IMG/VR virus record: IMGVR_UViG_3300020156_000088
Coordinates: 1 to 20,138 of that record
DNA length: 20,138 nucleotides
Reading direction: 5' to 3' (one strand)
Source: a virus
Shown here piece by piece: positions 3,121 through 5,757 of the stretch. A program made the position numbers and the translations under genes. The stretch's first letter is position 1. Each line of letters starts with the position of its first letter. Under the pieces are notes generated by a model that was given only the letters and a program-made list of their open reading frames with translations, was not told the DNA's origin and made no database searches.

Positions 3121-3140
3121 GTTTCAACTAATCAGGGAGT
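3121..3140 (+). repeat. Twin leader sequence, copy 1
   Basis: GTTTCAACTAATCAGGGAGT contains the ribosome binding site of the gene at 3150. An almost identical sequence is at 3551-3570 before the gene at 3579. Its TTTCAAC start resembles one arm of the TCAM-N7-KTGA dyads. Confidence 0.5.
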
Positions 3141-3149
3141 AATCACGTT

Positions 3150-3539
3150 ATGGCTGACATTTACGAACAACACCAAGCCGCGTTCGCCCAAGTCTCGGCG
3201 TTCGTTATCTTGGACGCCAGCGGCGAGCGCGTCGCAACGGTGGCGCTGAAGTTTCCCCGCGACGGCGCGGGCCGACTCTATGCCTATGTTCACATCATCG
3301 GCGTGGAAATGGTGCGAGGCCATGCTAACGGCTATGGCTACGACAAGCGTTCGGCGGCGGTCGCGGCGGCTATCGCAAAGGTTCCGGCATACGACGACGC
3401 GCGCGACCAGGACTCCACCTACGGCCGCCGCGTCATCGCAACACGCGCCGCGTTCCAGAAAGCCGCGCCCGCCATGGACTCGGACGACTGGACTCGCGTG
3501 CTGGAGCGCGCCGGGTTCCGCGTCCTACAGGCGGTCTAA
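3150..3539 (+). CDS. Conserved phage hypothetical protein
   Basis: This encodes 129 residues. The ATG follows the AGGGAG site in the twin leader. The protein starts with a strand-rich part (AFVILDASGERVATVALKFP), continues with YVHIIGVEMVRGHANGYGYDKRSAAVAAAIAKV, and ends in a helical segment. The Y-G-Y-D-K-R-S-A-A-V signature is one I associate with phage proteins of unknown role. No catalytic motif, membrane segment or signal peptide is seen. The strong individual leader suggests high or separately tuned translation. Confidence 0.7.
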   Translation: MADIYEQHQAAFAQVSAFVILDASGERVATVALKFPRDGAGRLYAYVHIIGVEMVRGHANGYGYDKRSAAVAAAIAKVPAYDDARDQDSTYGRRVIATRAAFQKAAPAMDSDDWTRVLERAGFRVLQAV

Positions 3540-3550
3540 CCGCGCCCAAC

Positions 3551-3570
3551 GTTTCAACAAATCAGGGAGT
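3551..3570 (+). repeat. Twin leader sequence, copy 2
   Basis: GTTTCAACAAATCAGGGAGT differs from copy 1 (3121-3140) by one base, and the similarity continues for about five more bases. It supplies the ribosome binding site for the gene at 3579. Confidence 0.5.
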
Positions 3571-3578
3571 ATTCAACA

Positions 3579-4358
3579 ATGCTTACGCCAGCCAAGGCTT
3601 ATGAGATTGCCTCGCAATGGGGTTCGCTCATGACGAACGGCGATCCGGGAGCCGTGTTCTACACGTTCCCGATTAACGACGGCCGCCCGCAATCTGAGGC
3701 GCACCGTCAACAGTTGCTCGATTATACATTTGACCTCATCAAAGAGGAGCGCGACGACACACCCGACGACGAACTAGACCCGGAAACGGCCGAACGTGTC
3801 GCGGAGCTGCGCGCCCTCTGGGATTTCTTCAGCACGTCGCCCCTAGGCGACGGAGTCGAGCGACCCGAGCACCCGAACCAGTTTCATCTGGCGACGGACG
3901 GCGCTAACGGCGCATGGGCGGCCTTGGACGCCTTCACCCAAGGCTATATCGAGGCGCTGTTTTTCACTGAGTGCGAGACAATGGCCGCCGAAGCTGCCGA
4001 GCGTCACGGCTCGGAGCGCCACGCGCGGGAACTCGGCTTCGCGGACCTCGCCCCCGAAGCGCTGGCGCGGATCATCGAGGATTGCGAGCGGTTCCAACAT
4101 GCGCAACTCAAAATCCAGCAGGGCCGCCAGATATTCGGAAGACGTCAAATTACAACAGCCGTGCTGTCTGTTCTGCGCGGCCCTGATTTATGCATCAAGG
4201 GTGGCCGTGACTTCTGGTATACCCGCAACGGCCACGGGTGCGGGTTCTGGGATGGCGATTGGCCCGAACCCTACGCCAGCGAGTTGACGGCAGCCGCGAA
4301 GGCGTTCGGCGAGGTAGACGCCTACCTAGGCTACGACGGCAAGGTCTATCTGTCATGA
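3579..4358 (+). CDS. Conserved phage protein, two-module hypothetical
   Basis: This encodes 259 residues and is the longest early gene. Residues 1-50 (AYEIASQWGSLMTNGDPGAVFY) look like a module found as a small protein in other phages. From about residue 110, QGYIEALFFTECE, then DLAPEALARIIEDCERFQ, then GRDFWYTRNGHGCGFWDGDW and AKAFGEVDAYLGYDGKVYLS follow the order of a widespread phage hypothetical family. The function of both parts is unknown. The stop overlaps the next ATG (ATGA), so the next gene is probably translationally coupled. The stretch at about residues 178-205 looks less conserved in style, but the frame is intact on both sides. Confidence 0.75.
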   Translation: MLTPAKAYEIASQWGSLMTNGDPGAVFYTFPINDGRPQSEAHRQQLLDYTFDLIKEERDDTPDDELDPETAERVAELRALWDFFSTSPLGDGVERPEHPNQFHLATDGANGAWAALDAFTQGYIEALFFTECETMAAEAAERHGSERHARELGFADLAPEALARIIEDCERFQHAQLKIQQGRQIFGRRQITTAVLSVLRGPDLCIKGGRDFWYTRNGHGCGFWDGDWPEPYASELTAAAKAFGEVDAYLGYDGKVYLS

Positions 4359-4974: not shown

Positions 4975-5007
4975 ACCCGGCGGCCCGTCACACGGCCGTC
5001 GGGTTTT
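4975..5007 (+). terminator. Factor-independent terminator of the early array
   Basis: An 11-bp stem with one G-U pair (ACCCGGCGGCC / GGCCGTCGGGT) and an 8-nt loop is followed by TTTT (5004-5007). It directly follows the last early gene on the same strand. Confidence 0.75.
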
Positions 5008-5016
5008 CGCTTGCCG

Positions 5017-5141
5017 GGAGCCGCCGCACGGCCGCTACGGGCGAGCTGGAGCCGCCGCACGGCCGCTACGGGCGAGCTGGAGCCGCCGCACGGCCGGTCC
5101 GCTACCTCGCGCCACCTGAACCGCCGCACGGCCGCCACGGG
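5017..5141. repeat. 31-bp tandem repeat
   Basis: Units start at 5017, 5048 and 5079 with a 31-bp period. The first two are essentially identical (GGAGCCGCCGCACGGCCGCT, then ACGGGCGAGCT) and the third stops after about 19 bases. A diverged fourth copy (CCGCCGCACGGCCGCCACGG) is at 5121-5140. A 31-bp period breaks any reading frame, so this is not a coding repeat. It lies between the early terminator and a minus-strand terminator. Confidence 0.8.
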
Positions 5142-5147
5142 CCACGC

Positions 5148-5321: not shown

Positions 5322-5445
5322 ATTCCCACTAAACCGATAGGGATTGACGGATATTGCGGCCCTGAACGCGGCCCCGCCTGACTCGACCACGGGTGCGGTC
5401 AAAGCCAGCGACTGCACCGACGACCAGGTGTGCCGGCGACCCCCG

Positions 5446-5580
5446 TCCTCGATTACGCTCCCAGGCAGGGCCTCCTCGATTACGCTCGGAGTCACCCCGT
5501 CCTCGATTACGCCTGGAATTCGGGCCTCCTCGATTACGCTCGGAGTCACCCCGTCCTCGATTTATTTTTCAGCGACCCCC
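5446..5580. repeat. 27-bp minisatellite, five units
   Basis: TCCTCGATTACG recurs at 5446, 5473, 5500 and 5527 with an exact 27-bp period. A degenerate fifth unit at 5554 runs into a T-rich stretch. Units 2 and 4 are identical, giving a 54-bp higher-order repeat (5468-5506 equals 5522-5560). Because 27 is divisible by three, several frames stay open. The plus frame reads SSITLGVTP-like nonapeptides; the minus frame (5307-5549) reads SVIEDGVTP/SVIEEA-like repeats with GAGGAC before a GTG in each even unit. None has convincing flanking coding sequence, so a protein-binding array is as likely as a coding repeat. Confidence 0.75.
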
Positions 5581-5596: not shown

Positions 5597-5634
5597 GAAA
5601 AAACCCCGGCAGCTCGGGGGTGAGGCTGCCGGGG
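5597..5634 (-). terminator. Strong minus-strand factor-independent terminator
   Basis: On the minus strand a perfect 10-bp stem (CCCCGGCAGC / GCTGCCGGGG) with an 11-nt loop is followed by TTTTTT. No protein gene on this strand ends here, which implies a short RNA from the region to its right. Confidence 0.8.
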
Positions 5635-5691
5635 CAAGGTCGGATCAGGGAGGAAACGCCCAGGAGGGCAGAAGCGTCAGGGACGCCTCAC
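5598..5691 (-). ncRNA. Candidate small regulatory RNA 2 with CCUCC loops
   Basis: On the minus strand TTGACA (5727-5722) and CATGAT (5703-5698) are 18 nt apart, a plausible sigma-70 promoter. Two dyads lie upstream (5743-5757, 5776-5790). The predicted RNA of about 94 nt would contain a hairpin GCGTC-CCT-GACGC (5686-5674), a hairpin GCCC-TCCT-GGGC (5669-5658), a single-stranded GTTTCCTCCCTGATCC (5657-5642) and the terminator. The pyrimidine motifs CCCTCCT and TTCCTCCC could pair with AGGAGG-type ribosome binding sites, as in known alphaproteobacterial CCUCCUCCC-loop RNAs. No open reading frame with a site is seen in it. Expression is inferred. Confidence 0.45.
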
Positions 5692-5742
5692 ATCAGGATC
5701 ATGGCCCAGGACCGGCGGCCGTGTCAACTGGCATTCTGACTT

Positions 5743-5757
5743 TCACCCTGCGCGTGA
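5743..5757 (-). promoter_or_regulatory. TCAM-N7-KTGA dyad, site D
   Basis: TCACGCGCAGGGTGA on the minus strand shares its AGGGTGA arm with the lysis-operon site (TCACTATTAGGGTGA). It lies upstream of the minus-strand TTGACA at 5727-5722. Confidence 0.5.

Follow-up and report, generated by a model that had tools for sequence, protein, structure and literature searches.

The window, by which we mean the whole 20,138-nt stretch of DNA analysed here (IMG/VR virus record IMGVR_UViG_3300020156_000088), is a viral contig containing genes for a tail protein, an endolysin, a ribonucleotide reductase, and a thymidylate synthase, and phages of Alphaproteobacteria are among its nearest relatives. On the minus strand of the window, positions 5691-5598 specify a predicted small RNA of 94 nt. 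It is preceded on the same strand by a -35-like hexamer, TTGACA (5727-5722), and a -10-like hexamer, CATGAT (5703-5698), which are assigned by consensus match only, are separated by an 18-nt spacer, share 10 of 12 letters with the consensus, and are placed as expected for an RNA starting near 5691. The RNA itself would consist of a 5' hairpin (hairpin 1) of 8 bp with the loop CCT (GAGGCGTC-CCT-GACGCTTC; 5689-5671), a weak hairpin 2 (UGCCC/GGGCG with the loop UCCU, encoded as TGCCC-TCCT-GGGCG; 5670-5657), the 10-mer UUUCCUCCCU (5656-5647), which is unpaired in the minimum-energy fold, and a Rho-independent terminator (5634-5604) with a perfect 10-bp stem (5634-5625 with 5613-5604), which is directly followed by a tract of six T (TTTTTT; 5603-5598). 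Because no T-run follows the stem on the plus strand, this terminator works in one direction. An earlier note on this DNA, made from the sequence alone, had described the promoter-like pair, the two short hairpins with TCCT and CCT loops, and the single-stranded segment leading into a perfect terminator (5656-5598), and all of these are present; for the two dyads that it placed further upstream, a search gave no inverted repeats of 12 nt or more. The note had also stated that no protein gene explains the terminator, and indeed none on the minus strand accounts for it; a protein encoded inside the 94-nt RNA is ruled out by the lack of an open frame. We note that 27-nt-period direct repeats (TCCTCGATTACGC units; 5441-5562), possibly a protein-binding or origin region, lie just beyond the terminator, that 31-nt direct repeats (GGAGCCGCCGCACGGCCGCTACGGGCGAGCT; 5017-5147) lie in the same gap, and that a 13-nt inverted repeat (92%; 4990-5002 and 5712-5724, 709 nt apart) brackets the gap holding the small RNA.

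Taken one by one, such motifs are not in excess in the window, in which we found 2 promoter-like sites compared with 2.4 expected from shuffled sequence and 9 terminator-like sites compared with 10.6 expected. The 94-nt RNA, however, folds at -45.4 kcal/mol (z = -5.5), and none of 200 shuffled sequences folded equally well. We conclude that the single motifs of 5691-5598 are at chance level and that the segment as a whole is beyond chance.

The only Rfam match in the window is to RF00519 (suhB, "Makes More Granules Regulator RNA", mmgR), that is, the alpha-r8 (suhB/MmgR/Sis) family. The match covers 5676-5589 on the minus strand and the covariance model from end to end (1-77 of 77), scoring 44.9 bits where the gathering score is 41 (E = 1.7e-6); matches to NsiR1, sX13, and anti-hemB all stayed under their gathering scores and can be traced to the terminator and the TTTCCTCCC stretch. 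Alpha-r8 RNAs are recognised by a weak hairpin, the single-stranded UUUCCUCCCU of 10 nt that follows it, and a terminator (PMC12559287). All three traits are found in the 5691-5598 RNA, in which hairpin 2 precedes the 10-mer as it does in the family, and the 10-mer is identical, with the same letters as the proven seed of the SisA-D small RNAs, the four Hfq-associated alpha-r8 members of Caulobacter (PMC12559287). The neighbours of the RNA in the window are phage genes, and the chromosomal position of sisA and mmgR, beside an N-formylglutamate amidohydrolase gene, is not found here, although family membership does not need it. The earlier note had hinted at kinship with alphaproteobacterial RNAs that expose their motif in loops. 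The CCUCCUCCC-loop RNAs SmelA075 and SmelA099 carry that motif in hairpin loops (PMC3927594); they and the cuckoo/CcsR type share an anti-Shine-Dalgarno C/U motif with the window RNA, but CCUCCUCCC is absent from the latter, its loops are CCT and TCCT, and its motif is instead the single-stranded UUUCCUCCCU, so we rejected this kinship in favour of RF00519. The note was thus right about a phage small RNA with a CU-rich anti-Shine-Dalgarno segment, but the acting part, if the proven family seed is the guide, would be UUUCCUCCCU and not the hairpin loops. Judged by its sequence, 5691-5598 is a genuine phage small RNA that belongs to a family already known and does not represent a new kind.

Further, the window copy has many phage relatives. 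The note knew of no phage counterpart, but an exact-pattern search recovered the core, comprising hairpin 2 and the 10-mer, from at least 119 IMG/VR viral contigs, and among named phages the RNA is also present in Bradyrhizobium prophages, where it is not annotated; viral fractions given below apply only to the exact-pattern matches listed. Our literature search found no description of phage-borne alpha-r8 RNAs, but an earlier MmgR phylogeny lay outside that search, and it may mention prophage copies. The core was also seen in one phage with a cyanobacterial named host, Microcystis phage Mwe-JY08 (PP395640.1; L244); this host may have been misassigned, the culture perhaps having contained an alphaproteobacterium. 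At another locus (L409), the 10-mer has been kept where hairpin 2 has diverged, an indication of selection on the seed.

Many of the viral copies share a setting. Of the 119 viral loci listed, 43 have a same-strand NusG-family ORF (PF02357) upstream of the RNA, which in 41 of these 43 ends within 1 kb; as some viral contigs break off near the RNA, the NusG fraction is a lower bound. A large-terminase gene lies downstream in 25 of the viral loci listed, always on the same strand; 22 of these 25 have the NusG gene, and 21 have NusG, HNH, and TerL together. Host genomes have the core most often, in 58 of 120 loci, beside a conserved gene that we read from sequence as N-formylglutamate amidohydrolase, in agreement with the published neighbour, and in the NusG setting in only 2 of 120. 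The association also appears when the search starts from NusG, with loci gathered by comparing closer NusG pairs and by genome search: across 199 Bradyrhizobium genomes, 8 of 12 phage-type NusG loci have the 10-mer 121-377 nt downstream compared with none of 6 chromosomal nusG genes, and the viral contigs found by NusG have the RNA in 4 of 6 independent loci, at a distance of 0.3 to 2.9 kb. In the NusG-linked layout, a hairpin terminator comes first, then the RNA with its conserved CATAGG-GTGCGG start and its own terminator, and then HNH, whose frame has its first start codon (start codons being automatic choices) 0-23 nt after the terminator stem of the small RNA in 18 of 20 measurable loci. 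As there is hardly space for another promoter before HNH, late transcription at these loci probably reads through the terminator of the small RNA. In L012, L029, L109, L242, L243, and about 40 more viral loci, we note the order NusG-family gene, terminator, alpha-r8 small RNA, HNH, TerS, TerL, and portal as a recurrent layout of late-gene control in alphaproteobacterial phages. One prophage without the small RNA (L418) retains a terminator-like hairpin directly before HNH.

When 19 NusG-linked RNAs were compared together with the window copy, 11 of 20 base pairs had changed on both sides, and the covariation score was 0.352 compared with 0.176 when shuffled and 0.06-0.14 when slid. The 5' hairpin and the terminator stem therefore covary in phage relatives; the test covers these two elements, hairpin 2 having been fixed by the search pattern. 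In addition, GCGGTAGC, which forms the core of ops (GGCGGTAGCGTG), the element that recruits RfaH, stands at the start of the RNA in 15 of 41 NusG-linked loci compared with 0.07 expected by shuffling. This enrichment at the 5' ends is seen, for example, in L012, L016, and L097; GCGGTAGC also occurs in 12 of 119 host loci and so is not exclusive to phages.

The window copy does not belong to this late-leader class, as it has no NusG gene within the 20 kb, no downstream operon below 5598, and no CATAGG-GTGCGG start. We also rejected the idea that it leads the minus-strand late operon of its own phage, because no minus-strand genes lie downstream and the minus-strand late genes (14.5-20 kb) are upstream of the RNA. 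RF00519 gave no match above threshold in any of the 20 records found to be related through ribonucleotide reductase (tail protein in one case) or of the 46 related through the neighbouring MazG-type gene, and phages linked by any of these three genes showed no conserved small RNA in the corresponding position; four sub-threshold matches in these relatives were discounted because the 10-mer is absent. Gene order and relatives thus identify the window copy as a sporadic, stand-alone version. As to its origin, the RNA could have descended from the NusG, alpha-r8, HNH, and terminase layout and been kept as a stand-alone relic, as the NusG linkage of 43 of the 119 viral copies listed and the recovery of the RNA from 8 of 12 Bradyrhizobium NusG loci would suggest, but the window copy has none of the three features of that class named above, and we regard such a descent as rather unlikely. 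Because the nearest relatives do not have the RNA, its capture from a host chromosome is equally possible. The relic origin would be compatible with a role as a seed-pairing repressor, which we consider next.

The earlier note had proposed that the C/U motifs pair with AGAGGAG-type sites of early genes, but target prediction ranked these sites no better than random positions (0.07-0.21), and the duplex energies of the RNA with ribosome-binding sites of the window were ordinary. The full complement AGGGAGGAAA occurs in the window only in the small RNA gene itself, even with one mismatch allowed. Early genes 3150 and 3579 have the common leader GTTTCAACNAATCAGGGAGTA (3122-3142 and 3552-3572), and its Shine-Dalgarno region can pair over 9 nt with the seed plus the seed's own 3' extension, which together read CUCCCUGAU. 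The candidate target site ATCAGGGAG lies on the plus strand at 3131-3139 in the leader of gene 3150-3539, where it would form 9 bp with 5652-5644, and at 3561-3569 in the leader of gene 3579-4358. Two such matches were obtained with none of 131 other natural seeds and with 1.2% of random extensions, but the two leaders are copies of each other (3.7% for one match), and the test was made after the data had been seen. These are the best matches in the phage and are suggestive only.

In Caulobacter, SisA represses mRNAs by pairing of the seed UUUCCUCCCU upstream of start codons, and this pairing is Hfq-dependent (PMC12559287). By analogy, the window RNA most likely acts in trans through UUUCCUCCCU, and we consider it probable (about 0.72) that 5691-5598 encodes a phage-borne alpha-r8 small RNA with its own promoter-like site and terminator, which is bound by Hfq and serves as a seed-pairing repressor of host alpha-r8 targets. 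Transcription would run from the promoter-like site to the terminator, and the RNA would, like SisA, associate with Hfq and use UUUCCUCCCU to pair with G/A-rich Shine-Dalgarno regions, so that mRNAs also under host alpha-r8 control are translated less; early genes 3150 and 3579 of the phage itself may be further targets via the ATCAGGGAG leaders, to which the 9-nt matches weakly point. Having the same seed as the host alpha-r8 RNAs, the phage copy is expected to join their network, with the same targets, competition for Hfq, and binding to any CrfA-like sponge. In a different emphasis, the phage copy would mainly inactivate a host sponge RNA of the CrfA type or load Hfq, thereby freeing or displacing host alpha-r8 RNAs, rather than repress mRNAs. 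Phage-encoded anti-sRNAs (AgvB and AsxR) are known in E. coli, and the sponge RNA CrfA pairs exactly with the alpha-r8 10-mer, both partners declining on pairing (PMC12559287); however, CrfA has been demonstrated in Caulobacter alone, and identity of the seed to that of host RNAs predicts repression and sponge binding alike and cannot separate them, so that we hold a predominantly decoy role to be improbable. That the segment is a mere terminator or insulator against antisense transcription from the 5860 promoter region, with a functionless RNA, would suit its place, flanked by the divergent 5860 operon on one side and on the other by the point where the upstream plus-strand operon ends, but is very improbable, as an RF00519 match over the whole model, with the 10-mer unaltered and the hairpin before it, would not be kept in a bare terminator.

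For the phages at large, we tentatively propose, at somewhat less than even odds, that a host-type alpha-r8 RNA is the terminated leader of the late promoter in many temperate alphaproteobacterial phages, that a phage NusG paralogue, perhaps recruited at the ops-like GCGGTAGC, allows polymerase to get past the terminator of the RNA into HNH and terminase, that the leader is otherwise released and works as a SisA/MmgR-like small RNA, and that the copy in the window phage is a relative standing alone, with a seed extension that matches the leaders of two early genes of this phage. The combination of a NusG paralogue, a small RNA with its terminator, and packaging genes suggests a switch by which phages of rhizobia and related bacteria would control their late genes through antitermination; our literature search found no report of phage NusG paralogues as late antiterminators. 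The multiple alpha-r8 paralogues found in the chromosomes of these bacteria may also have come from this phage layout. Since phages carry, in large numbers, an RNA that alphaproteobacteria use for tuning carbon metabolism (MmgR of Sinorhizobium, for instance, restricts polyhydroxybutyrate storage), infection may plug directly into host riboregulation.

Among known systems, the window RNA is closest to the alpha-r8 RNAs of bacteria, such as SisA-D of Caulobacter crescentus and MmgR of Sinorhizobium meliloti, with which it shares the 10-mer, the weak hairpin, the terminator, the size, and the whole-model match; unlike these, it is carried by a phage, does not lie beside an N-formylglutamate amidohydrolase gene, and extends its seed at the 3' side with GAUCC, whereas AGACUU is common in the family. 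The NusG-linked copies (Bradyrhizobium prophages ppBeUSDA76-1 and ppBdUSDA122-1; L012, L029, and L109) are of the same RNA family and likewise phage-borne but have the CATAGG-GTGCGG start and directly precede HNH/terminase genes, whereas the window copy stands alone. The layout of these copies matches the Q - pR' - tR' arrangement of lambda, with a NusG paralogue in place of Q. In Stx phages, the leader of the lambda-type pR' is a functional small RNA (StxS), which is unrelated in sequence and, unlike the window copy, is followed by late genes, but which, as a phage small RNA produced from a promoter-terminator pair, offers a functional parallel for the NusG-linked class.
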